Below are positions 28,839 through 62,861 of a stretch of 64,000 bases of DNA, piece after piece. This stretch comes from Escallonia rubra (lineage: Eukaryota > Streptophyta > Magnoliopsida > Escalloniales > Escalloniaceae), in contig JAVXUO010002337.1 in assembly GCA_033065855.1 (NCBI GenBank), positions 1 to 64,000 of the forward strand, written 5' to 3'. The notes beneath the pieces were generated by a model that was not told the origin of the DNA, searched no databases, and saw only the letters and a list, made by a program, of their open reading frames with translations. The position numbers and the translations under genes were made by a program. Every line of letters begins with the position of its first letter. Position 1 is the first letter of the stretch.

Positions 28839-30788
28839 ATGAGCTGTCGTGATGGAGAAGGGCCGGGCAATCATTCCGGTAGTCAGCCAGAAGTCCAAAA
28901 GGCAAAAAAAAGGCCGAGTGTTGGAATCATTTTGATAGAAATATGGTGGACGGCATCCGAAAAGCTCGATGTAAGTACAGTGCTAAATTATTTTCGTCTG
29001 GTAGTGGTAATGGACATCTTAACAGGCATTACCCTCAGTGTGCACCTCGACAAGGCCACGTCGAACCTAGCCAAACACAGTTATCTTTTGACGGTAAGTT
29101 ATTTGTTTATAATCAGCGAGAGCAAAGAGACAGTCTCGCTGAATTTGTTATTCACGATAAACAAGCCTTTAGTTTTGCCGATAATGCTAAGCATTCTAGA
29201 TATGTGAACACCTACGTGCAACCTTTGTACAAAAAGGTTCATAGAAACACAACTAGATCCGATGCACTCCGACAATATAATGCTGCTAAAGTATGTCTGA
29301 TTGATTATTTCGATCATTTTGACGGTAAAGTTAGTCTTACTTATGATATTTGGCAATCTCCGTTTATTTTTGTGTAGTTATGCTTGTGTGATGGCCCATT
29401 GGATTGATGCAGATTGAATTATGAACAAGAGAATCATCGCTTTTGAACCCTTTCCTTTTCCGCATGATGGAGTTAACGTTGCTACTATTATAATTAAAGA
29501 ATAAGATTATGAGTATTAGTTTTGATAATGCTACTAACAATAAATCTGATGTTGCAACTTTAAAGGAGAGCCTCCAACCTGTACTTTGTGGTAAATTATT
29601 TCATGTTCGTTGTGTTTGTTATATAATTAATTTAATTGTTCAAGATGGTTTAGCTCCTGCAGGAGACATTCTTCTCAAAATGAGGGGTATGACAACGTAT
29701 GTTAATAGTTAGGGTCCGAGAACACAACAATTTAAAGCGTTGTGTGTTCAATATAATATACCTCGCAAGAGACCACTTACAGATGTGGTCCATAGGTGGA
29801 ACTCTACATATCATATGCTTTTACATATTCTGGCATACAAAGAAGTCTATACGCATTTTCTACTAACCTCGTTCACAGCCGGCTTGCCAACTCCCACGGA
29901 ATGACAGGTGGCTACACACTTATCTGAATTTTTGGAGGTATTTTACACGTCTACGAATTTATTGTCTGGTACGTACTATCCCACCTCTCCTATCGCTGTA
30001 ATAGAAATTCTTAATATGGCTACAATGTTAACAAAATGGAGATATATATGACTCTTTCAGCAAATAGTAAAAGCGATGGATAAAAAGTTTAATAAATATT
30101 GGAGTAAACTGCCTGTTGTTTTTGTTGTCACTACTTGTTTAGATCCTAGGTTAAAGTTTTATGGAGTGAACGTCTCGATGCAAGAAATATCGAGATTAAT
30201 GTGCTACCCAGATGCGGCACAACCGAACTCACAGGGAAAGTGAGTAAGACATTTGAGGAACTGTTTGACCTATATTGTAATTCAGCTGACGTGCGCAGGC
30301 GAGCTTCATTATCGACTGGTGAGACGTATTATGCGCCATACCTTAAAGGCTTTGAACATCTAGTAGCAAGACAACTACTAGGTGAAGATACTTCTAATTC
30401 GGCAGGTTCGTCTACTTTTTTCTCTTTTAATGAGATTGGTGTATATTCCAATTCTGATCATTATTCTGCTTTATCAATGCAAGAACATGTTACTTTGAAT
30501 TTGTTAAATTTTTGGAAAGAAAATCAAAACATGTATAAAACTTTATCCCAAATTGCACGGGATGTACTGCCGGTGCAAGCCTCCACGGTTGCTTCAGAGT
30601 CGGCATTTTCAGCGAGCGGGAGGATTTTGGATGACAGGAGGAGTGGTCTTAACCCCGAGTCGCTCGAGCTATGTGTATGTTGGAAGGATTATCTTGATGC
30701 GAAATACCACGAGCAAGATAAATCGATTGATGACAGTGGAGGTGAAACAGTGACTCGGACATTGAAGTACTTCCGGATGATTAGGTAA
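28839..30788 (+). pseudogene. hAT transposase of the inner element
   Basis: A BED-finger-like segment (KARCKYSAKLFSS, GNGHLNRHYPQC; about 28965-29040) is followed by a core with SFDNATNNKSD, LFHVRCVCYIINLIV (29515-29635) and VVHRWNSTYHMLL (about 29787). The C-terminal hATC domain (about 30500-30690) contains TLSQIARDVLPV, STVASESAFSASGRILDD and SRSGLNPE-like sequence, and the frame ends at 30788. Several stops and frame changes occur (for instance stops near 29376 and 29710), so it is inactive. The low-complexity ACC/AGC region just upstream (28630-28710) may be its N-terminal tail. Its hATC is in better condition than that of the outer element, in keeping with a later arrival. Confidence 0.85.
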
Positions 30789-39436: not shown

Positions 39437-39838
39437 TATGGCCGAAGCCCCCTGTGACTGTGACGGCGATGGCTATAAGGTTGTGAGCCCATCCCGATAC
39501 GAGGGCCGAAGCCCCCCCTTTGATTGAGACGGTGATGGCTATAAGGTTGTGAGCCCATCCCGGTATGAGGGCCAATGCCCCCCCTTTGATTGAGACGGCG
39601 ATGGCTATAAGGTTGTGAGCCCATCCCAGTACGAGGGCCGAAGCCCCCCCCTCCCCTTTGATTGAGACGGAGATGGCTATAAGGTTGTGAGCCTATCCCG
39701 GTACGAGGGTCGAAGCCCCCCCCTTTGATTGAGACGGCGATGGCTATAAGGTTGTGAGCCCATCCCGGTATGAGGGCCGAAGCCCCCCTGTGATTGAGAC
39801 GACGATGGCTATAAGGCTGTGAGCCCATCTCGTTAGCA
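39437..39838. repeat. Tandem array, ~66-bp unit, six to seven copies
   Basis: Copies of GAGACGGCGATGGCTATAAG then TTGTGAGCCCATCCCGGTA and GAGGGCCGAAGCCCCCC begin near 39460, 39526, 39592, 39664, 39731 and 39797. The period is 65-72 bp, varying mainly in the length of a C run. The long reading frames here exist only because of the repeat. Confidence 0.9.
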
Positions 39839-39841
39839 TGC

Positions 39842-40395
39842 AACATGATTGTGGCGCATGGGCGCGGTGCCTATAGCACGAGACAATACCTGGTGCCGGG
39901 GGTACATGTTACGAAAGTGGCGCGGCGACGATCGTCGCGAAGCAATACTTGGTGCCGGGGCACGTATCATGACGATGGCGCAAGGGCGTGGTGACGAACG
40001 TCGCAGAGTAATATTTTGTGCCGGGGCACGTATCATGAGAATGGCGCAAGGGCGCGGCGACGAACGTCGCGGAGCAATATTTGGTGCGCACATATAATGA
40101 CGATGGCGCACGGGCGCGGCGACGAACGTCGCGGATCAATATTTGGTGCCGAGGCACGTATCATGAGAATGGCGCACGGGCGCGGCGACGAACGTCGTGG
40201 ATTAATACTTGGTGCCGGGGGCACGTATGATGAGAATGGCGCACGGGCGCGGTGACGAACGTCGCAGCACAATATTTGGTGCCGGGGCCCGTATCATGAG
40301 AATGGCGCAAGGGCGCGGCGACGAACGTCGTGGAGCAATATATGGTGCCGGGGCACCTATCATGAGAATGGCGCAAGGGCGCGGGTCGGGTGTCT
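39842..40395. repeat. Tandem array, ~62-bp unit, about nine copies
   Basis: Units contain GGCGCGGCGACGAACGTCGC, GGAGCAATATTTGGTGCCGG and GGCACGTATCATGAGAATGG. Each has the palindromic core GCGACGAACGTCGC. It follows the 66-bp array directly but is unrelated in sequence. Confidence 0.9.
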
Positions 40396-40614
40396 CGAAG
40401 ACAGGATGTGAGTTGAGTGTGCTTGTGATAAGAAAATAATGAATGCAACATGTAGTAATGACAAAGTTGGGAGTGATGGTATGCCGTCGTTGGCGACGGG
40501 TCATTCGACGGTAGCGGTGTGCGGTCACGAACGACAGACGTCACGAGGTTGATGCACGACGGACGTCGCGAGGTTGATGTCCGAACGTCCGTAAACATCG
40601 CGAAGGTGCAAAGA

Positions 40615-43765: not shown

Positions 43766-46700
43766 CTACATTTTCAGACAAGTCCCCTCGAAACCAGGAG
43801 GAATATCAATACACATTTCACTTTTAACAGTCGATAACCGAGGCTGTGGAACTCTAGTACCCGAGATTTCCCTTTGAAACGAATCTTTAGGAGCCACGAT
43901 ATCGACTCTTCCAACGTTTTCGCCGCCAACCATGTCGATATCCATGTCAATTGCCTCACTCCCTTGCCTGTTGCCATTAGCACATGTGTTGTGCGCACCA
44001 TTTTGAGGACAAACTACCGACTGGAGTTGGTCCTTATCCTTGCATTCAGCAACTTTTTTCACACGACGAAATAATCCCCAGAAAAAGTAGTTGCCATTCC
44101 ATTCTGGGAAAAAAAGCACCCAGAAGAGAAAACTAATGTCATTGTCATCTAGGCACCAAGAACATAAGTAATTACTACAGTTGTACCCGATAGCTTGTCG
44201 TTTGGCACAAAACTAGTACAGTATAGTCCTTCACTTGGGCTTGGTTTTCATAGCACAAAACACCAACTACAGAAATTAAATATCATAAGAAGACAATACA
44301 TAACTTACCTTAAAAGGAGCACTCTATTGCAGTTTTTGCATGATAGTTGATTGAATACGGACAAGGAAAGAGAGAAAAATATCCCTAGTCATCTGTTTGC
44401 TTCTATATGTTCGATCATTTATGATTGTACGATCCGAGGTTAATCTGGAGGGAACTTTTCCCCGCAAATCAATAGTGCTAAGAAAGCATCAATTTCACTA
44501 TTCACTCCCACATAACAGAGCCCACACATTTTACTACATAACCCACGGTTCAAGGTAATGTACCCAAATTGAAAATAAAAAGGAAGCCAGATATGTAAGT
44601 TATGCCAAGCACACATCTCCAATAATAGAGCAGAAGGAAAGCTGAAGTCTAGAGGGACTAGAGCTCTTACTTTGAGATTCCACATGCAAGCATCTAGATG
44701 TAAATACGAGCAACTCGACACCATTAATATAGCTCTTCATCACTAGATCTTGCACCCATATGGACTCCAGAAGAACAACATAATCACTAGACCTAAAGAA
44801 AGCTAAACAGACATCACTTGTCATGCAAAATAACTACTAAGGCCCCAAAACAGCGAGGGTGCAGAAACAAACCTCTCACTGTTAGACGGGAAAAAGTAAA
44901 GTCCAATCTCATCTTTATCAGGACAGTCACCCTGGAATATGTCCATCCAAATCTTATCACGAGGGAGCAGCTCAAATTCAAGGACTGCAGGCATTTTCTT
45001 TACGAACTCATAGATCCGAAGGCGAACACTTGTTGGAGGATGTGCCTGGAAACCATCATCGAATCCCCCATGTTGAAAACTATTGTTACGTAGTTTAAAG
45101 CCCCCCCTAAACAAAGCAAACATGAAAGTTAGTAGGCATAACTCCATGGTGATTTCTAAAATTTAAGTGACGAACACTACTTGTAGTAAATTATGTGCCA
45201 CAACAAGCATCACCTTCTGGGCGAGTGGACATATTGCATGTTATAGCTACACAAAGTTCGAGTAATAGCTCTCACTTTACTTGTAGGAGTACATCTTGGA
45301 TCCATCCACTATGCTAGACCAAGTCTTCACATGGCCACCATTAGGTGGATGTTGTTCAGTATATCACCGAAAGAACAGCGTATCTTATAATTGCTACTCT
45401 TTCATGACAAGCTATATTATTTAATTTTCCCAATACGGATATACACTTTACTAAGGAGCAAAGAGAGAAAATTTGCCTACAGACACTACAAAATGTATGA
45501 TGAACCGAGGAAAGTCTAACCACGACACACAAAGTGCCCTTGAATTCTTCAAGGATAGGAATGGATGTATAGTTTAGCAAAAGATAACTATCAGGCAGAG
45601 CATGAACACGCTACTTACTTCCAAAAAGCATGTCGAGCAGGATCACTTAGCAACTTCCGCGCCTCCATGTCAGTACATACATTACCTCCTACAAAAATGA
45701 TAAAATCGATTTTATTAACACAGTTCAATGTTCCCAGTGATGATTCTAATCATTCTATTAATCACAGAGAACTGCATTAGTTTCTTCTTCCAACATGAAC
45801 TTATCTTAAATATTAACAAAAATTTAGAAACAACAAGGACTAAATCTTAAACCATTCGCCAGATGTTTTAGCAGTAGTTTCAGGCAACGAGAACCTGACA
45901 GATCGAACACCAGAATACCCTTGCCTGAAATGATGATAGGGTAGGCAGTGCATTGGAAGTGAAACTAAACCTGAAGCTTACACGCTGTCTCTTCTAAATC
46001 AGCATTGCTACTTTCAATTTCCTTTGCAATAATTATTGTAAAAGTGTCGTGAGAATAACCACTTGCCATAACATATACTCCATATTAAACCAGAGAAGAT
46101 AGGGTACATGCTTAAATAAAGGCACCCGCACCTCGATGGACATGCTAGGGACGAAACATTCAGTTTCACCCAAGTTATTGAGAACTACAACTCTTGACTC
46201 AAAAATTTAATTATCATCTAGCAACGACATCGACTTCATGAAACAATGGAGGCAAAGATACAACAAAAGAATGGGCAACCTGGATGAATTGCCAATTAAC
46301 AGCAGTTAAAAAAGTGCCTGTACCATCAGGGAAAATTTAAATATCATAACTACTACATGATATAAAAGTGCAATGAAGGCTAAAACAGGACAGACTATGA
46401 AGAGAACAGAGACGCCCTTGCCTGGTACAATTAGATGTGGGCAGTTTATCGAAAGCGAATACGAAGGTGCATCTGACTCTTTAATCATCGCCTTCTCTGA
46501 CTTTGTATCCGTGGAATCAAATTCCTCAGCAGCCTTAAGCGCGGTCATAGGCTGTCTCATAACAGCATGATCCTTCACGGGATCTAGAACACCATTGCTT
46601 TCTGAAACAAACATTATTGAACCCATAAGATGTATACCAAATGACAGCGCCAAGCAAGGTTAGACAAATGCTGAACATGGGGGTACATTGTCAGACTAAC

Positions 46701-49700
46701 ATCCCGCTCAGCACCTATACCACCATTTATATTCAAACTACAAATGCTCCCCTCAGAAACTTATTCATTAGAAATTAAATTGAAACTATCTTCCCAAAAA
46801 ACAACTGATGCAACATAGAGACAGGAAATGCAGGATTAAAATACCAAAATATTTCACTCGCAACATGGTAATATAGAGCTTGTCAAGACTATAACTTCTC
46901 TAAGGCTTTTTTATTTTGATGTCCACAAATTTAAGTGTTTTTTGTCCTTAAAAAATTCACAATTGGGACTGTTTTAGAGGGCCAATGAACGAACTTCAAA
47001 AAAGCCCTTTGTGCAACAATTACAAAAAAAGGGGCTTTCTACATGCAACTCGCTGCAGGTTTGATGGTCCAAAGAAAAACTTCAACGCTATAGTCATGCA
47101 CTCTTGGCTACCAAGGATTACTTGCCACCAAGTTCTCTTGATCTCAGAGCTATAGTCCTTACATATGTATAGCACATATATATAGGTCATTAAGGAATAC
47201 GAATAAGAATTCTATTAGTTTCTCTGTCTGTGGTATGTGATACTGAAGAAGGGAGCGGGACTAATAGGCAGCTCACTCCTAATTCCTTCGTCTTCGACCT
47301 TTACTTTCTGCATTCCACACTCAAGATCCATCCTATGTGAATAGAAGACTAAATGGGGACTAATGAAGGGATCAGATAGATGCCCTTGCTTGAAAGTGAA
47401 CATGCATATGACGCTTTACCCCTCGTCTTCTCCAGCATTGCATCCATAGTTTCAATCTCCTCAACAGCCTTACGGGCCTTCAGAGGCTGTCCCGTCAGAG
47501 CATTATCCTTCACAGGAGATAGAACAGCACTGCTTCCTGAAATATTTTTGAAGAGAATAACTTATTCAACCCAAAAGATGATTACGAAATGACAGCACAA
47601 GTATAGATAATGCAGAACATAGGTACACGCTCAATGATCTACTCCTAACGTTAATGGACTAGTTATAAAACCCGATATAGCTTTACCATCCATAATATCT
47701 CAAATAATATTTCTTGTAACCGAAACTTTGAAACTAACATTGGCATTTCTTCCGAGAGAAAGGAAAAAGCCTGAATCAAAAGTACATATTGCTCATTGGC
47801 AAATTGCAACTTACATCTTGTCAAAACTTTTAATCTCTAAGGCAATCTCCTAGTTTAAATGTTCTTAACTTCATGGGGTGCTTCCCAATTCACTGATTTG
47901 GGCAGTAGTGGGCTGCCATGAATGGACTTTGAAATGGGGCTTGCGTCGCAGCAGATTCAAGGGATTTAGTAGGTATAAAGAAGCACTTCTTTAAACCCTT
48001 CGCTACAAAAGGATTAATCGCCTTAATCTCAAAGCTATACTCCTCCTGTGTATAGCATAATTTTAAGCTCATACGGAGTTGTTAAGAAGGATTTTTTTTT
48101 CCAAGTTCTCCGTTTGTGGTGCGTGATAGTGAATGAGGGAGTGAGGCAGCACCTTCTTCATCTTTCCTACTTTCCATTTTGGCATTTTAACACTCGAGAT
48201 CCAATCTGCAAACTATTTCATCTTCAAAGATGTGGTACTTTGTCAAGCTTGTTGCTTCCTTCAACTATGTTTTAGCCCAAAACCAAACGCTGTTTACAAA
48301 TTGTTCTTCCCGGGTACATTTTAAATGGCCGAAATTGCAGCAGGCACCTTCTGTTGCATCAACTTATCAAAGCCCGTGTTGCATCAACTCTAAGCTTAGT
48401 CTGAACCTCTTGACTCCATCTGAAACTAAACCTTTGAGACTCTCAGAATCTTTTGTGCTGGTTTTTCTACAGACGAACTCTAGTGCAAGTGTTGAGACAG
48501 GCATGAACTGTCAGTAATTTCTACTAGAATTCCACAACCAGGCAATGGGACAGCTACTCACATGGTATGCATACAGAACGTGAATATACTGATACAGGTT
48601 GATGTAAAGAGTCAACATATGTAGAAATTGAGTTGAACTAAAATGACTTTCTTGATATGTTCTACATCATTTGTCAAAGTATATGTCAGGTCAGATAATG
48701 TTTTATCACATCCCTTAGTGTGTTCCATATGGGTGTGAAAAAAGTAAAGAATTAATTTTCCTAGTTAAGAAAATCTTAAGAATTTATAAGGTTCCCGTCC
48801 AAATATCTAATCCCTTGTTTATAGTTGGGCTGGAAGCTGGAAGAGAAGCATCTCTGTCATGCTGTTGGCAATAAATCCTGTCCAACACGAATATATTACA
48901 AGATTGTAGCTTCAGAACACGAATGCTGTAAGTTTCTAAAAACTGATGGCAAATTCAAATGTGCACAAAATTTTGAACTAATACCGAAAGTAATTCTCAA
49001 GGAATCATATGCGGTAGACATTACCCGATACCTTACATTAACTTGAAAAAAGAATCAGAAAATCAAAGCAAGTTCTATTTGATAATCAAACTGGACAAAT
49101 GCTAACACATTCATCTTGTTTCTCTAACAGAGTAATGTGTTGACGTTATATACAACAATAAGAAGAGATTTATCACCTTTTAGTTGCCTAAACTTCAATG
49201 TGGTCTGCGTATTGCCAAAGTTGGAAAGATCCAAATAACTTGAAGGCCTTTTTGTAGGATTAGCTTTGACTTTTTCCGTGCAGAAGTTTGGACCAATAGC
49301 TTTGGGCTTAATGGGAGTTCTAGCATATGGAGAAGCTAGTGTTTCTGTTGACCTCGGGCTTAAGTGCAAATTAGTCCTTGAAGGAGACTCAGATTTCTTG
49401 GATCCAGAAGACAGCTTAATGGCTTCTTGAGCAGTAATGTATTTCACTTTCCCCTTTTCACCCTTTTTTTCCGAGAAGCAAACCTGCAATAAATCTTTTC
49501 GAAGGTAACTTCTTTCACATTCTTCACAAAGCAAATCCTTGTCATCCGTTCGAGTGCAATAACTGAAAATGAGAGGAAGAACAGCAAATCTCAGATAAAT
49601 CCTTTTGCAATTGAACTTGATAGAACTTTCTTAAGAATAAGGACAGGATACACATTAACAATGATGAGAGGATTAAACATTTCAATGCATGAGGATCTTG

Positions 49701-52700
49701 TAGAAAATACACAATCACATAACCTTTATGCATCAAACTCGCCACATATAGAGCGGGCATGCATTTTATTCACAAGACATAGAGATTAATATGGTTAAGG
49801 TCCTTAAAGAGAGTTGAAAAATTAAGAGGTCGAACAAATCAAGGAGTTCGTTTGATTCCGTGTGTTGGGGGAGACTTAAAAGTGGGAGGCCAGGTATATA
49901 AGAAAGTAGAAACCATCTTGAACAATCCAAAACCTAATGTGAGTTAACTTGAAACGAAGTGCACTTTTAGTTTTCGATTTTCTCTTTGATAGGCCGTTGC
50001 AGTCTAACAGTGTGTAATATGTGTAGGCACAAGAAACTCAAATCGGGAGGAGTTGTTTACATTTAAAGGCAGAATCTTGGAGGTCCAAAGGCCTTGATTC
50101 AAAAGAGATTCATTGCAAATGCCAATTTCGGTTGATTCTGTTGATTTTTTGCAGTATTGGGTTTTCATTTCAGCTAGCTTAGTTGATACAGACAAATCCC
50201 TCTATTCCACTCTTTAATAGCTTATTATCTGCTGTAGCTTCCCATATAAATTGATGTCTGATGTACTAGCTGTGTTCGAGACAATAGAAAGTAATAGGAA
50301 ATTTTGCAGCTTTATGCAATTTGAGATTGTTGACACCTCATCTTGGGATCGTTTTGCACGTATAATCACTTCATCATCATTGTTATATTTTGGCAATGCT
50401 TAAATCGTGTTCTAGTATGTTGCCACGGGTTCGAGATCATGTCTCAGATTTCTATACTTGATAGTCGTCAATTTTGAGTTCACTCACACCACAGTTTACC
50501 TTTGTTACTCACCGTGAAAGAGTATTTATGTGCTTCACATCTGTTATGAAGGGCTTTAAGTCAGCTTTCCATCAACATTTCATGAGCCTAATCACTCAAG
50601 TATGGATTCAGATTATCAGGATTACCGAACTTGCAGTGAATCTGACTCATCCTTAGTACCTCCCGATTATCTCGAGCTATACTTAATATTCCTTGGTGAT
50701 TCAAAAACGCGTGAAAAAATAGAGTCCCATAGCCGCTTTCCCATGAGATAAAATAGGCCAAAAGGACTTCAAATGAGAGAGAACCAAGCTAGAAAGCACC
50801 GACACCTCATATAGGTCGAGGTATGGTGTCCGATACCTACCGACACCTCCGGACACGTGTCCAACACCTCTCAGCGGTGTCCCAATTTATTGATTTATTT
50901 TTTAATTACTAGACACCGTGTTGGACACCTCTTGAAGAAGTGTCCACACGTATAAGGCCAAAATTTGATATTTCGGGGACTTTTTTAGAAATGAACTCTG
51001 AGGCCCAACTAATCCAATCGACTCGAAGAAAAGGTACCCTTCTTCTTTCTCTCTTATTCTCTCTCTTTTCCTTTGTTTTTTAACGAAAATACCCAAGCTA
51101 ACCAGTTCATAGGAAGATACGTCAGCATAGCCGACCTCATTTACAGACCCATCTAGCTATATATGACATCTTCTTGATCCTTTTGTCACATGTTCTTCTC
51201 TCTTGTTACTGTTGAGACTCTAATCTTGTTATTGTTGAGACATTCGTGCTACTATCTTTCTTTCTCATCCGTTTTGAACGAAATTCAGCTATTCAAATTG
51301 ATCTTTATTCTTATTATGTACATATTTAATGCATAAATAAATGTGTATATATTATATAAATATAAATATATACAGAAATAGAATAAAAATATATTAAAAA
51401 ATTCAGCGGTGTCCTGTAGTGTCCAAAATCTAGTTTTTTGAAAATTGCGGTGTCCCGATCGGTGTCGAACGCGGTGTCCGTGCTACCTAGGAGCCAAGCC
51501 TTCAGAGTTCAATCATCTATAAAGCGCTACAGATGCACTCACGAGGCTTCCGCGAGTCCCAGCCGGTAATGACCAGTATGCCGCTAGTATTGCTTCCCTG
51601 AACACAAAAAAGTCCTAAAACCTAGGGTTTGGAGGTTAAAAGGGTTTTTAGGACTTTTTACACCCAAAGTTGGGTTTCTTAATCCTTAAGCACTTCAAGG
51701 GTATGATCTAAGGTCCTAGACCTCATTCGAAGGGTTAGAACTTCATCAAAAACCACCTTGATACGACGTCAAAATTGTCTGTGACTAAAAGACACTAATC
51801 CACCATGATAAACTCTAATCACCCAACCACCTCCGATCAATTCCACATCCATAGACTTTAAGTTAATCTTGTGGATGATCCATTATTCAAGTAATCAAGA
51901 TCCATATACTTGGTAACAAATATTCATCGCTTAAGGTAGATAACAAGAGCTAGCGTGTTTTATATATTGTTGCTAATTAACTAGGCTAAGTGACATGCTC
52001 TAGCTTTGACCTTTGTCAATGTATCATACAAATTAGATATGACAAAATTAGATGTGATATACTTCTCTCGCCATGACGATTGATTAATTATACGTGTTCA
52101 AATCGCCTTCCTTGTGGTTTTGATACTTGTTCGTGATTTGGTAACTGCATTACGGATTTTCCTAAACTTACTCTTCGAAAAGCCTATTTGATCAGAAGTC
52201 TCTCTTTCACAATTCAGCTCTCTTTGGATGGATCACATCTTATGTTAAAACCCCAAGAATTCCTTGATATCAAGTCCGAGTACAAAACTCAAAGCACCAC
52301 CCATTTGGAGTCTTATCGAACTACATTGGTTCTACTACCGATAATCCATCTTTTATATAAATACAGTATTTATATAAAAGATGGATTATCGGTAGTAGAA
52401 CCAATGTAGTTCGATAAGACTATTAGGCTACTACCACATGTCATATGGACTCGGCACTTTTGAGCCATGAACAAGTGGCAACATGACATGCGACATGTCG
52501 CAGATATTGCTACTAAATCAAAACTTAGTGATGAGCCGTGTCAATGACAATCTTATAGGAGAGCATCTAAAACATTTCACATAATCCTCAAAATCTCAAA
52601 TGCTTAACTTCAAAATAGTCCTAATTCAATAGTTAATAAGCTAGACTAATAGTTCATTTGCAGAGAATCTATAAGCTATTTATTCTCAATTGCAAATGTA

Positions 52701-55700
52701 AAATGCAATCCACACCTTTACTGAAACTCACCCTTCGTGCTAGTATTAGCATGAAAGGTGAAAGAAAAGAAGACCGAAGGGGTAAGCACGTATTGTCTAC
52801 TAAGGAATTTACCCATATATGGAGGGACAAATGTACTAATACACAATACGAGCTATTAACAACAGACATTTAATAGAAAGTCAAACTGAGATGATATGCA
52901 GTCCAAAAGCACAAATTTCTGCACCGACACCATTATTCAAAAGAAATTTTGACCGATAGACAATAGGATCTTGATAAAAACCCAGACTGAATAATTATAG
53001 ACGATTCCCTAAGGAATTCATAATGTCCAAGTTCGTATAAGCCGGATGAAAAAAAAAAAAAATCTAAAGCAAATCGAAGTGGCTAACTTGCAGTGACAGA
53101 AACAGCAATTTCCACTGCACATAGTTTCACACGATGGCAATTTTGAAGAGGAAATAGAAGGAATCTCCGAAAATTCAAAACTAAAAAAGTTTAGGATCAT
53201 TTGCACATAAAACCCTATAGTTTGAGGGTTTGTGCGCATTTCAGCTTGCTCTTTCAATTTTGGCACAATTCACCTCACTATTCATTAATTTGTGTTCAAT
53301 TTACCAATTAAACGGCTGAAATCCAATTTATTGGATGGCCGTCAAATTTTTAAGGGTAAAAAAGTCAATTCAACCCCCAAACCACATTGGCAGCCACATC
53401 AACCTTAATCACCCACTTCAACCTCTTGTCCAACCCGATCCCAACCTTCCTTAGCCCCAAAGGTAGCTTTAGCTTTGCCAATGTCGGCATCGCCTCATCC
53501 GTCCCTTTCTCGCTTTCTTCGCCTTCTTCTCCTTCGACATCTCTCGCCTCAACTAATTATGCCTCCTAATCGCACTACCGCCATTGATGCCCTATTGCCA
53601 CCGTTGAGGCCCCAGAGAAGGCGGTCTTTTTCTGTAATGATATCTCCGAGCTATCCCTCGTCGGCGCGCAGAAGCTCTCGAGTACCTAGAGGACAAGTTG
53701 AACATCACCATCACCGCTAGACCTGGCAAACGGGTAAACCGCCCGGGTACGGATAGAATCGGTTCAGGTAAATTTTAGCCGGTGTTTCTCGGGTAAATAT
53801 TTTTGGAATCCTTACCCTACCCTGACGGGGCGGTTAATACCCGCAGGTAAATAATTAATTTTTTGAATTTTTTTATTAATAAACATTTGGCCTATTTATT
53901 TTAAAGTCTGTTTTTTCCTTCTATTTTATTATTACAACTTTATGATTTCATTCCACTTGATCATTAATCTCAAATCAATTCTCAAATCCAACCCCATCAT
54001 CTCAACTCTCCAAACACAAATATTCAATAGGAACAAGCATATCTAAATTTTTTTTATCTCACAACACAATAAAACACAAGTAAATCTGAAAGAAATCAAC
54101 ACTACAATTTACTTGTATACATACAAAGATTTTTAAAACAAATAAAACTAGCAAATCTGGCGATGGCAACGGAGATGGTGGCCACGGAGCAGTGGTGGAT
54201 CTGATCAACGACATTGAAGGCGAATCTGGTGGCGGAGCGAAAGAGGGACGATGGACGCCGTCGCTTGATGTGCAGTAGTTGGCCGTCGACTTGATGTGGT
54301 GTCGCTACCGTCGATGGATCTGACAGGCGAGAGCTACGTCGCGAGGTAGATCGATCTTAGGAGGGAGGGGGAGGAGGGGGACGACGGCGGAGGCACGGAT
54401 CTGCGGTGGAAGTGGCCGGCGGTAGTACATCTACGGAGGAAATGGCTGATCTGCGGAGGTGCACCGACGGTGGTAGTAGATCTGCGGAGGTGCGATTGTG
54501 GTCTAAGGCGAAAGAGACGGCGGCGGCGGAGGCACGGATCTGCGACGGACGGTGGAGAGAGACGGCGGCGGAGGCGCGAATCTGCGATCTTGTGGATGAT
54601 GACTGGTGATCGTCGTGGGGTGTGGTCTGAGAGAGAGCAAGAGAAAGATGGAAAAAAAGAAGTGGCGGCTGGAGAGAAAAAGAGTGAAGTGAGAATGAAA
54701 CATTGAAACCCTAAATCCATTTATATAACTGAAAATACGGGTAAATCCGGATTACCTGTACCCGATCCGAACCGACCCGAAAATTACGGATCGGTTCGGG
54801 TACGGGTCTAATTTCTACGTGTCTTCTATATATGTACTCGTACCCTGCTTTTTTTAGCAGGTACGGGTAATATTTTGCCAGGTCTAATCACCGCCTTTGG
54901 CGCCGCTACCATTGCTGCTCCAGACATTGCTGTGGAGGTGCCTGCCATCGTCAGGGAGAAGACGGAGTTTGACGTAGTCTTCGAATGTTAGGTTTGGACG
55001 GTGCTAGCGCCGTTGGGGGTTTGGAGAGGGCTGGTGGGGGGAAATGTTGGACGACTCTGTGATGGTGGGGGGTTGGAACGACTCTGTGATGGAGGTGAGT
55101 TAGACGGTGCTGCAGTGGTGGGGTTTGGACATCACTGTAGTGGTTGGGTTTAGACGGTGGTAGCGCCGTTGGAGGTTTGGAGGCACTGCGGTAGGTGGGT
55201 TTGGACTGCACTGGTGGGGCTGACATGTGTCTGTACCATCACCTTGGCCCTTTCTGTAGAGCTTTGGATTTTGCTGGTTAAAGAATTTGTGTTGGGCAGT
55301 GGTGATGTGGTTTGCACAGGTGGATGGTTTTGATTAGGCCAACATTTGGTGAGGTGGACATGTGATTGCCAAGGTGGATTGGATGATTGAAGTCACGAAT
55401 TTGCCCCTCAGAAATTGACGGGTATCCAAAAAATTGGCTTCAACCCGTCAATTGGTAAATTGAGCACAAATTAACAAACAGTGAGGTAAATTGCGCCAAA
55501 ATTGAAATAGTAAGGTGAAATGCGCACAAACCTTCAAACTATAGGGTTTTCGTGCAAATGATCCAAAAAAGTTTAATAACAGTGCTTAAGGTTTTTGAGA
55601 AAGACAAGAACACTAAAAATTGTTTAGTAATAAAGATTCTATAGCAAATCAAAGGGGCTCCCAGAAACAGCAAAGTTTGGGATTTCTATGGGGAATTACA

Positions 55701-58700
55701 TTAAAGTCCTTTTTCAAAATGAAAGAACAAGATCTTAATGGAACTTAGAACTAAGGACTTGAAGCGAACATTACAAGATTTTCAGAAAGTGCAAGAATAC
55801 GTGAAAAGGATGGAGTAATGCAAGAAATATTGACAAAATTAACCCCCCCCACCCCCCCAAAAAAAAGCAAGAATAACATCACACTTTAACAATTTCAATT
55901 GTATGAAAAGTTAATCAACAAATGAGAAACCTTGTTTCATCAACATGTTCAAAGGCAAATTTTAGAAATTTAAGAGTATAGATAAATCCCTCACCTTAAG
56001 GTAACAAATTTAGCGTCAAAGAATGCCCTCATTGACGAGCATAGTTCATACCAAGGGTTATAAATCAAAACCCTAAATAAATAAAGCAAAAATAGTACTC
56101 AAATCAAATCAAAGCTCATTGGGTCATGTATGTGCCAAGGGGGTGCCCAAGCACCCAAGAAGAGGTGTTGAGACACGTTTGGGTCGGGGATGCCAAGAAG
56201 GGCACAACTGTGGCAAAGGAGGTCCAGGGCAAGAAGAGACGGGGAGACTCCCACGTTCATTGGCCTCGAAGGACCCTTACAGGGAAGGCCTGCAGCTAAC
56301 CCACCCTCCCCTTTCTCCCCCCTCACCCCAACACACCATAGCGGGAATCCCCGTGGTTGACCCCCAGAAGAGGAAGACCCGCAGTCGACCCCTAAGGAGA
56401 AGGCATGCTGCCAACACCCCAAGGAGGGAAGGCAAGTGGACGACCCCCGTGGCCTTTTGTACCTTAAGAAATATCTTTTGGTAAATTCGGCAGCAAGTGA
56501 CAAAGTGGGTACAGTAATGAGTTGACTGGATTAGTAGCGTTGAAGTTTGACTGATGAATATATTTGCTGACATGTCTCAAAAAGTGGGACCCAAAAGCAA
56601 TTAAATGCACGTAACCAAGATGGGCTAGCAACAAAGCTAGCTAATATATGCACATTCAACTTCACATTGTGGGAATATAGGGCAAGCACGGACAAGAAAT
56701 AGAGACTTACAGATGCGCACGAATACGGCAACGAGAGCAAGTCTTAATGCATTCCACAACCCCAGTATCGCCACACGTTTCACATAATTTAGCCTGCAAA
56801 GAGTGAAAGAAGACATAATAAAACTCTTAACGAGTTTCATCTTCATTGCGTTTTGCTCCTCTGCTACTTATCACCAAAATATATACTGCTCATTTGCTGA
56901 ATAGAGGTAAATATTTCTTTGTCAAAATCCACCATCAAGCGCACATGTATCCATCTTCACATAGGCACACAAATAGATTTCCCTAGGAGGTAGTTTAAGA
57001 CTCTCTAATCCAATGAACTCAGAGGATGATTGCAAAAAATACGAAGTCAATTCCTCAAGAGAAGTAGGGAACAACATACTGACAAGGAAACTGCATACTC
57101 TAGGAGCTTGAGTCGCAGAAGAAAAAAATATGACAAAATATGCAAAGGTGGCATAATCACAGGAAGTAAAAGTAAAATACTTTCTTTGTGACAGTTCACA
57201 CCAGACAACAGAGGTTCGCTACAATCACAGTACAGAGCATTTGAAGAACCATACAGAGCACTAGTATATTGGTCCATGAAATAGTTATTGAAGCAACTTC
57301 ACTTTAGTGGTTGGTAAACCCACTTATAACTGAACTAATTCAAATATCAGGTTAATTTTCAAGCACAAAGTAAATGAAGCTATGATCAGCACTCAAGGTA
57401 ATGATATGAGAAACACCTAAGATGCAAGATAAGAATGATGACAGCATCACAGTCGGAAGAAAGTCAACCAATTTTTCTACTACATCAATAATTACACCAC
57501 TAAAGAGACATTTATCACAAGGAAACAAATCCAACCAAATAGAATGCAACTATGTCAACTACCCTTGAATTAGAAGGGACTAAGGGAAGATACAGCAAAA
57601 GATAAAAATTGAAGCATCACAAGCTAATCCATTCTCAAGATAGACAAACAATGAAGAAACCACAAAAACGATTTTTCTTCAGATTTATCAATTGCACCAC
57701 CAACATTGTACTCCAGGAAAGCAGAAATGACCCAGTGAAATGCAAACAGATACTACAGAAGAAAAGGCAAAGAATATAAGAAAACGAGGGCTAGTTTGGT
57801 AACATCTCTGCTTTCGACTTATCAGTGTTTATGTTAATAAGTAAACTAAATGCATAACCACAATTATATGCAAATACCATTAACCAGGGTGCTATGTCAT
57901 TTGGGTTCAAAACTTCTAGAAAGAAGAATGTCATACAGGGTTGAGAAAGAAAACGCAATGATGAAGGGAACAGTCTAAATGGAGACAAAAACTTAAATCA
58001 CATTAAAGCTAAACCCACAATACAGAAAAAGCAAGTTTCTTCAACTTGCCCCGTATTTAAGAAAGTGAAATGGTTGATAAGATGTCTGATGGATTGAAGG
58101 GAAAAAAAGGCACTGATGACTTCACAAGAAGATGAACAGCATAAGCCTGCTGTACTTCACCTGAAAAACTTCTAGCTATCGAAATGAAGATGGGCATGGA
58201 GAGGTTAAAAAAATTTAATAAGAAGAACAAAAGCACAGACCGAGGAGTTCAGTTGTACCTCAATTTTCTTTTTTACCTTAAAAAAAGTAATCAACTATAC
58301 AAGCTTGATGTTGGCCCACGAATCTCAAGGAAGTTTTACTAACAAGAAAATAAAGTAAAATCGCTTTAATTTCTACACTTTCTACACTTCACTGGTTTTT
58401 TGGTTAAATATTAGTGAAAGGGCGAATGAAACAAGTCAGGACAACCGAACTCCCTGTCGAACCGAACTCACAAAAATTTGCAACAAAGAATAGTTAATTT
58501 AAAATGTTAATATTTTAAGGACAAATGGGGGTATGAAAAACAAATAATACTAGACATCTAAATTAGCAAATCTAACTTTATCTGCATTGTAATTTTTCGT
58601 CTTCTGCATTTCTGCAAACGAAATGCATATTTTGCCAGCCCTTTCAATAAAAAAAAGGTGACAAGCAGCAAAAAAGCAAACGAAACTGTTGGCAATAGCG

Positions 58701-61124: not shown

Positions 61125-61635
61125 GTCGTCTACTCGGCCTCGCCGAGCAGAGACTTAGGGGCTCGTCTGCTCGGTTTGGCCGAGTAGAAAGAGACGCCTT
61201 TGGAAGTCTACTCAGCTTGGCCGAGCAGAGATGTTTTCAGAAATACATCCAAGTCGTCTACTTGGCTTGGCCGAGCAGAGACGCAGTTGGCGGTCGTCTT
61301 CTCGGCTTCGTCGCGCATAGACGTGTTTCCAACTCGTCTACTCGGCTTGGCCGAGCAGAGACGCGTTCGGAGGTCGTCTACTCGGCTTGGCCGAGCAGAG
61401 ACGTGTTTCCAAGTCGTCTACTCGGCTTGGCCGAGCAGAGACGTGTTTGGAGGTCGTCTACTCGGCTTGGCCGAGCAGAGACGTGTGGTCCAAGTCGTCT
61501 ACTCGGCTTGGCCGAGCAGAGATGTGTTTGGAAGTCGTCTACTCGGCTTGGCCGAGCAGAGACGTGTTTGGAGGTCGTCTACTCGGCTTGGCCGAGCAGA
61601 GACGTGTTTCCAACTCGTCTACTCGGCTTCGTTGC
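61125..61635. repeat. Tandem array, ~40-bp unit, about 13 copies
   Basis: The unit is GTCGTCTACTCGGCTTGGCC then GAGCAGAGACGTGTTTGGA. Each carries the hyphenated palindrome CTCGGCTTGGCCGAG. Copies become more regular rightward and pass directly into the 75-bp array. Confidence 0.9.
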
Positions 61636-62735
61636 GCTCGTCTGCTCGGCAGAGGCTAGGACCAAAGTAGCTCTTCTGCTCGTCAAGAGCAGAGGCGTGT
61701 GGTCCATAGGGCTCGTCTGCTCGGCAGAGGCTAGGACCAAAGTAGCTCTTCTGCTCGTCAAGAGCAGAGGCGTGTGGTCCATAGGGCTCGTCTGCTCGGC
61801 AGAGGCTAGGACCAAAGTAGGTCGTCTACTCGTCACGAGCAGAGACGTGTGGTCCATTGGGCTCGTCTGCTCGGCAGAGGCTAGGACCAAAGTAGCTCGT
61901 CTGCTCGTCAAGAGCAGAGGCGTGCGGTCCATAGGGCTCGTCTGCTCAGCAGAGGCTAGGACCAAGGTAGCTCGTCTACTCGTCAAGAGCAGAGGCATGA
62001 GGTCCATTGGGCTCGTCTGCTCGGCAGAGGCTAGGACCAAGGTAGCTCGTCTACTCGTCAAGAGCAGAGGCGTATGGTCCATTGGGCTCGTCTGCTCGGC
62101 AGAGGCTAGGACCAAGGTAGCTCGTCTACTCGTCAAGAGCAGAGGCGTGTGGTACATTGAGCTCGTCTGCTCGGCAGAGGCTAGGACCAAGTAGCTCGTC
62201 TGCGCGTCAAGCGCAGAGGCGTGCGGTCCATAGGGTTCGTCTGCTCGGCAGAGGCTAGGACCAAAGTAGCTCGTCTGCTCGTCAAGAGCAGAGGCGTGCG
62301 GTCCATAGGGCTCGTCTGCTCGGCAGAGGCTAGGACCAAAGTAGCTCGTCTGCTCGTCAAGAGCAGAGGCGTGTGGTCGGTAGGGCTCGTTTACTCGGCA
62401 GAAGCTAGGACCAAGGTAGCCCGTCTACTCGTCAAGAGCAGAGGCGTGAGGTCCATTGGGCTCGTCTGCTCGGCAGAGGCTAGGTCTAAGGTAGCTCGTC
62501 TACTCGTCAAGAGCAGAGGCGTGTGGTCCATTGCGCTCGTCTGCTCGGCAGAGGCTAGGACCAAAGTAGCTCGTCTACTCGTCAAGAGCAGAGGCGTGTG
62601 GTCCTTTGCGCTCGTCTGCTCGGCAGAGGCTAGGACCAAAGTAGCTCGTCTGCTCGTTAAGAGCAGAGGCGTGTGGTCCATAGGGCTCGTCTGCTCGGCA
62701 GAGGCTAGGACCAAAGTAGCTCGTCTACTCGTCTC
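61636..62735. repeat. Tandem array, 75-bp unit, about 14.6 copies
   Basis: Units start GCTCGTCTGCTCGGCAGAGG at 61636, 61711, 61786 and so on. They continue with CTAGGACCAAAGTAGCTCGT and CTCGTCAAGAGCAGAGGCGT. The copies are very similar. Because 75 is divisible by three, stop-free frames of 200-325 codons run along both strands; these are not genes. Each unit shares a CTCGTCTRCTCGGC-like core with the 40-bp array, so the two are related. Confidence 0.95.
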
Positions 62736-62861
62736 TATTGTAGTTACCGTCATGGGGTAAATAGGTAATTTTGCTCCTGTTAAATTCTTTAGATGTATGC
62801 CACGTGTCAAGTGACTTGATAGGTCATGAGATCTCATCCATTGGATGGGTCTGTTGTTTTC

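Follow-up and report, generated by a model that had tools for sequence, protein, structure and literature searches.

The segment between positions 53194 and 55564 of the window (the whole stretch of 64,000 nucleotides of Escallonia rubra DNA analysed here, which belongs to contig C1646 of an assembly of 566 Mb in 3222 contigs) is very probably a non-autonomous Mutator-like element (MULE), a Pack-MULE, whose cargo is a chimera of two host genes; judging from the sequence, the chimera would have been amplified in the genome, one copy would have inserted into an intron, and this copy would later have been interrupted by a hAT-like element. An earlier note on this DNA had proposed a Pack-MULE with a captured part of the RPL12 gene. 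The bL12 fragment and an intact donor are indeed found, but a second donor, a gene with a CRM domain, had been missed. According to the same note, the capture had been carried into one intron; the intron location holds, but the genome contains 33 copies, so that this picture was incomplete.

MULEs have long terminal inverted repeats (TIRs) of about 100–500 bp and target site duplications of 9–11 bp. Both features are present in the window. The two TIR arms, of roughly 185–206 bp, are 81.6% identical over 207 columns, which bears out the TIRs of about 185 bp that the earlier note had described, and the element is flanked, as the note had also seen, by a perfect, A-rich direct duplication of 11 bp (AAAAAAGTTTA). 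Since this duplication is A-rich, and since 16 of the 21 other exact duplications of the family measure 9 bp, the 9-bp form may be the real one. Without the hAT-like insertion the element is 1194 bp long, which is probably too short for a transposase gene. Its layout is TIR, short spacer, CRM fragment in antisense, bL12 fragment in sense, GC-rich tail and TIR (Table 1). The tail (54987–55380) has 56 match pieces in the genome; its part at 54987–55220 contains imperfect repeats of 23–40 bp, which are present too in sibling elements lacking bL12. A search of the whole window against Rfam at gathering thresholds gave no match.

Table 1. Coordinates of the element, of the sequence inserted in it and of the surrounding host gene (positions in the window)
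Feature	Position	Strand	Remarks
Two exonic stretches with SPOC_AIPP2 domain	44666..45108	-	membership of the PHD gene by strand and order only
Host intron holding the element	49563..56710	-	GTAAGT...CAG, 7148 bp; sequence, PHD motif, weak Pfam match
Left target site duplication	53183..53193	.	11 bp, AAAAAAGTTTA
Left terminal inverted repeat	53194..53399	+	core 53194-53379
CRM-domain (CRS1_YhbY) gene fragment	53412..53580	-	antisense to the bL12 piece; donor C3143:28941-29124
bL12 fragment, part 1	53591..53717	+	begins at about donor residue 52; lacks one base of the donor
hAT target duplication, left copy	53710..53717	.	8 bp, ATCACCGC
hAT-like insertion	53718..54886	.	1169 bp, perfect 13-bp TIRs TAGACCTGGCAAA, multicopy
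hAT target duplication, right copy	54887..54894	.	8 bp
bL12 fragment, part 2	54895..54984	+	reaches donor residue about 124 (EKTEFDVV)
GC-rich repetitive tail	54985..55359	+	at least partly common to sibling elements without bL12
Right terminal inverted repeat	55360..55564	-	core 55381-55564
Right target site duplication	55565..55575	.	11 bp

The bL12 piece is identical to its donor in 172 of 218 columns (79%), with an alignment score of 203 against 30 for the best of 30 shuffled sequences, and the donor is recovered in a search of the whole genome with an E value of 1.4e-25. The similarity to bL12 is thus well above background, and it is confined within the TIRs, the alignment stopping at position 54984. 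The intact donor that the earlier note had proposed to look for in the same genome lies on contig C2904: it has an open frame of 186 amino acids, with the Pfam domains L12_N and L12 C-domain and an N-terminal extension. The L12 C-domain family occurs above cut-off at six places in the genome, and C2904 is the only one that the element DNA matches; the other five were read by eye as mitochondrial-type. In the Protein Data Bank, the best E value of the C2904 protein is 1.1e-20 with bacterial bL12 and 1.5e-9 with mitochondrial bL12, and no chain among the matches listed is named plastid. Its greater proximity to bacterial than to mitochondrial bL12, together with its N-terminal extension, suggests that the donor encodes the plastid bL12.

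The captured codons (approximately 52–124) correspond to the N-terminal domain, the hinge and the very start of the C-domain, and the window copy is frameshifted. The presequence and the N-domain had both been thought to be retained; the N-domain codons are there, from about codon 52, and the presequence is missing. The 150-bp presequence of the donor scores 17 with the element, when 200 shuffled sequences give a mean of 18.9 and a maximum of 28, which disproves the capture of a transit peptide. Shuffled controls thereby rule out the segment 53412–53580 as a bL12 presequence, and this segment matches instead, in antisense, a CRM-domain gene.

The alignment of 53412–53580 with this second donor has 146 identities in 190 columns and a score of 169 (30 for the best of 30 shuffles). 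In the whole-genome search, the match falls on the minus strand of C3143:28941–29124, with an E value of 3.4e-32. The C3143 donor has an open frame of 284 amino acids, whose CRS1_YhbY (CRM) domain, PF01985, is on the plus strand at 29068–29274; since the domain and the element match are on opposite strands, the CRM fragment is carried in antisense. The upstream cargo being an antisense fragment of a CRM-domain gene, the element has two donors and is a two-gene chimera. Proteins with CRM domains help to assemble ribosomes or to splice introns, in many cases in plastids. An antisense capture of this kind can be misread as a transit peptide when a single gene is expected. As in Pack-MULEs, the cargo consists of host gene fragments, and here the two genes are located in the genome and have open frames and Pfam domains. 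The donor segments are GC-rich (63% for CRM and 70% for bL12, against 40% for the window). No match to the TIRs was found at either donor locus (L039 and L040, 7 kb each, E value 1e-4).

The element lies within a PHD-finger gene read on the minus strand. Two exons, one ending at 56711 and the other starting at 49562, each encode part of the PHD finger, with GTAAGT from 56710 and CAG before 49562. The location in the intron of such a gene, already given in the earlier note, is therefore supported by splice sites and a PHD motif on both sides of the element. Joining the two exons gives a peptide that matches PHD_pln with an E value of 0.00096 and 19.4 bits, which is below the cut-off of 29.8 bits, and also weakly matches the B-box zinc finger (E value 0.035). 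The SPOC_AIPP2 domain is encoded downstream of the PHD exons, on the same strand (E value 4.7e-21). A three-frame Pfam search of the minus strand between 55601 and 64000, at an E value of 0.1, gave no match, although this interval includes the first PHD half-exon.

The sequence that interrupts the bL12 fragment has, like hAT elements, a short TIR at each end and a target duplication of 8 bp, which is exact (53710–53717 and 54887–54894), in agreement with the earlier description. It is also multicopy, with at least 93 match pieces (40 of 1258 candidates scored). The hAT elements of grapevine have TIRs of 8–23 bp and target duplications of 8 bp (excerpts of PMC2528002), and the insert resembles hAT elements in its 8-bp duplication, its short TIRs and its copy number. 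From its length, 1169 bp, we call it a putative non-autonomous hAT-like element. None of the 32 other MULE copies has a match to it at its locus, and 30 of them contain bL12 sequence across the insertion site (the exceptions are L019 and L041). This shows that the hAT-like element arrived after the MULE, and the proposal that the bL12 fragment was split only later is thus correct.

The genome contains 35 matches to the interval 53380–53717, which are the two donors and 33 copies of the element, that of the window included. All or part of the chimeric interior is present in each of these 33 copies; their number is a lower bound, since copies under the threshold of the first look are uncounted. 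L023 (on C1092) and L025 (on C117) are counted separately though they share flanks at 95.6–98.5%, which indicates that they are the same insertion present twice, by segmental duplication or as two haplotypes. Both TIR arms are present in 30 of the 33 copies, L019, L033 and L041 being truncated. When end offsets of up to 6 bases are permitted, the target duplication is exact (8–12 bp) in 22 of the 33 copies, has one mismatch in five, and is worse or truncated in six; the exact duplications of L015 and L020 fall in mononucleotide runs. The 11 copies without an exact duplication count against the Pack-MULE reading. The copy of the window is nearest to L009, from which it differs by 3.3%. The similarity between the two is confined to the element and their target duplications differ; each was therefore inserted separately.

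A midpoint-rooted tree of 32 copies (L041, too short, was omitted) splits into subfamilies of 22 and 10 copies, whose inner regions are about 25% divergent. In subfamily 2 (L029–L038), a piece of the tail is doubled in 9/10 copies, and a bL12-like piece lies between the two in 7/10; nine copies are 1.40–1.46 kb long and L033 is truncated. The tail of another copy, L017 (C2685:788543-790670, 2128 bp), is interrupted by foreign sequence of about 900 bp, probably another nested insertion.

The earlier note had also recommended a search for other elements with the same TIRs, and sibling loci are found in addition to the copies. With up to 3 mismatches, the TIR terminus occurs at 123 forward and 115 reverse places (238), when the reversed control gives 0 and 0. 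The siblings L049–L052 have the same TIRs and some or all of the tail, and differ in their left half; L053–L055 (on C49, C205 and C2394) have the same TIRs and a third type of interior, of about 0.8 kb. Those with the same tail reflect the state before the capture only indirectly. The left interior of L049 (L049:300-700) has 36 matching places, 13 of which match only about bases 161–374 of the query; these bases could be another captured segment or a repeat. Matches of 16–27 nt between the interiors of siblings and the bL12 locus were taken as low-complexity. Contig C841 contains, at 106679-112442, a candidate autonomous element of 5.8 kb with the TIRs of the family.

Small RNAs derived from the copies may silence the bL12 or the CRM donor in trans, which we consider unlikely. 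Exact runs of at least 21 nt are shared with the donor in the bL12 segment of 21 of the 33 copies (the longest is 35 nt) and in the CRM segment of 29 (longest 34 nt), but such runs are expected from any captured fragment at this divergence; moreover, the longest runs of the window copy are 15 nt with the bL12 segment and 30 nt with CRM. A broader speculation, to which we give very little credit, is that the amplified chimera would link the two host genes, small RNAs or an in-frame peptide of the bL12 N-domain modulating the donors. If true, this would account for the conservation of the frame in most copies of subfamily 1.

That this frame is under purifying selection in subfamily 1, a short peptide similar to the bL12 N-domain being made or exonised, also appears quite improbable. 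It is true that 17 of the 21 copies analysed have neither a stop nor a net frameshift across the bL12 piece, contrary to 0/10 in subfamily 2. These 17 are 14 strict cases plus L013, L014 and L027, where gaps of 5 and 7 amount to one 12-base gap; the count becomes 16/20 when L025, the duplicate of L023, is dropped. In addition, dN/dS within subfamily 1 is 0.39 in the true frame, the five remaining frames giving 0.54–1.14, and variation is higher at third positions (permutation p 0.0076; p 0.043 for CpG sites alone). However, the excess at third positions loses significance once CpG sites are set aside (p 0.24), and nearly all CpG sites of the donor occupy codon positions 1 and 3 (33/74, 4/74 and 35/74 at positions 1, 2 and 3, respectively). 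In subfamily 2, whose frame is broken, an off-frame likewise gives a dN/dS of 0.39, which shows that such values arise without selection. In neutral simulations (300 runs per setting, with substitutions only and no frameshifts), 6–8 of 20 tips on average acquire stops, and 32–38% of the runs have no more than two, the number observed. Within subfamily 1, variability is highest in the bL12 piece (0.144) and lower in the CRM piece and both TIRs (from high to low, the values of these three regions are 0.106, 0.100 and 0.075), an upstream methionine codon is present in only 2/21 open frames (L021 and L026), and the window copy is itself frameshifted in this piece. We therefore rejected coding selection on the bL12 frame, the signals being mostly explained by CpG decay and by the neutral simulation. 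Neutral decay is enough to explain the state of the frame, and a weak constraint is possible.

Another alternative is that the same TIR family captured bL12 several times independently. The divergence between the inner regions of the two subfamilies and the extra internal duplications of subfamily 2 go in this direction, but donors, order, orientations and breakpoints are the same in the six copies that were compared among the 33 (those of the window, L013, L016, L030, L031 and L037, drawn from both subfamilies), where the donor breakpoints agree within 6 bases. Shared breakpoints and separate target duplications are most simply read as one capture followed by amplification, and we regard repeated capture as most improbable. 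Last, a chance similarity, or a degenerate paralogue of bL12 rather than transposon cargo, would fit the modest identity of the window copy to the donor, but both are refuted, almost beyond doubt, by the E value of the donor match in the genome, the far lower scores of the shuffled controls, the TIRs, the target duplications and the presence of copies at different sites.

In the two-donor Pack-MULE scenario that we favor, an ancestor made of TIRs of about 185 bp and a GC-rich tail would have gained DNA from two genes that are now on different contigs, the pieces being joined head to head with the CRM-domain gene in antisense and bL12 codons 52–124, approximately, in sense. Repair or gene conversion may have mediated this acquisition. 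A transposase acting in trans on the TIRs would have multiplied the chimera into two subfamilies and at least 33 copies; one copy would have entered the 7.1-kb intron of the PHD-finger gene, and the bL12 segment of this copy would then have received the hAT-like element. Most probably, the cargo serves no function as a protein and is decaying DNA moved along by the TIRs. The family is a clean example of a transposon that joins parts of unrelated host genes and then propagates the product: the open frames of the two donors persist in the genome, and the hAT-like element marks one copy only.

Pack-MULEs are described as non-autonomous MULEs with long TIRs, target duplications of 9–11 bp and fragments of host genes (excerpts of PMC3310237). 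The family found here shares its long TIRs, target duplications and host gene fragments with the Pack-MULEs of rice and other plants; it is distinguished by its pair of donors, bL12 and an antisense CRM-domain gene, and by the number of copies of a single chimera, 33 or more. In Oryza, 5–10% of the putative genes derived from MULEs have two or more parents, and the parents of MULE captures are GC-rich, as are the donors here (excerpts of PMC4858842). The tomato family PM-ZIBP is an example of a captured host-gene fragment amplified, in that case to 14 copies; it has tandem TIRs in 13/14 copies and one parental gene, according to excerpts of PMC3310237, whereas the present family has single TIRs and two donors. 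The KAONASHI (KI-)MULE of Arabidopsis is a high-copy MULE with a protein segment of host type; as presented in excerpts of PMC2528002, it is a non-TIR element that contains mudrA and encodes a ULP protease domain, unlike the element described here, which has long TIRs, broken cargo and probably no room for a transposase. In the open-licence literature, we found no Pack-MULE with ribosomal protein L12 or a CRM domain as cargo. Pack-MULEs, chimeric captures and amplified families are already known, and the present family is a new member whose anatomy is here corrected.

Elsewhere in the window, two regions are repetitive and have open frames on both strands: 61200–62760, with units such as GLVCSAEARTKVARLLVKSRGVWSI, and 39830–40440, with units like GDERRGAIFGAGARIMRMAQGR.
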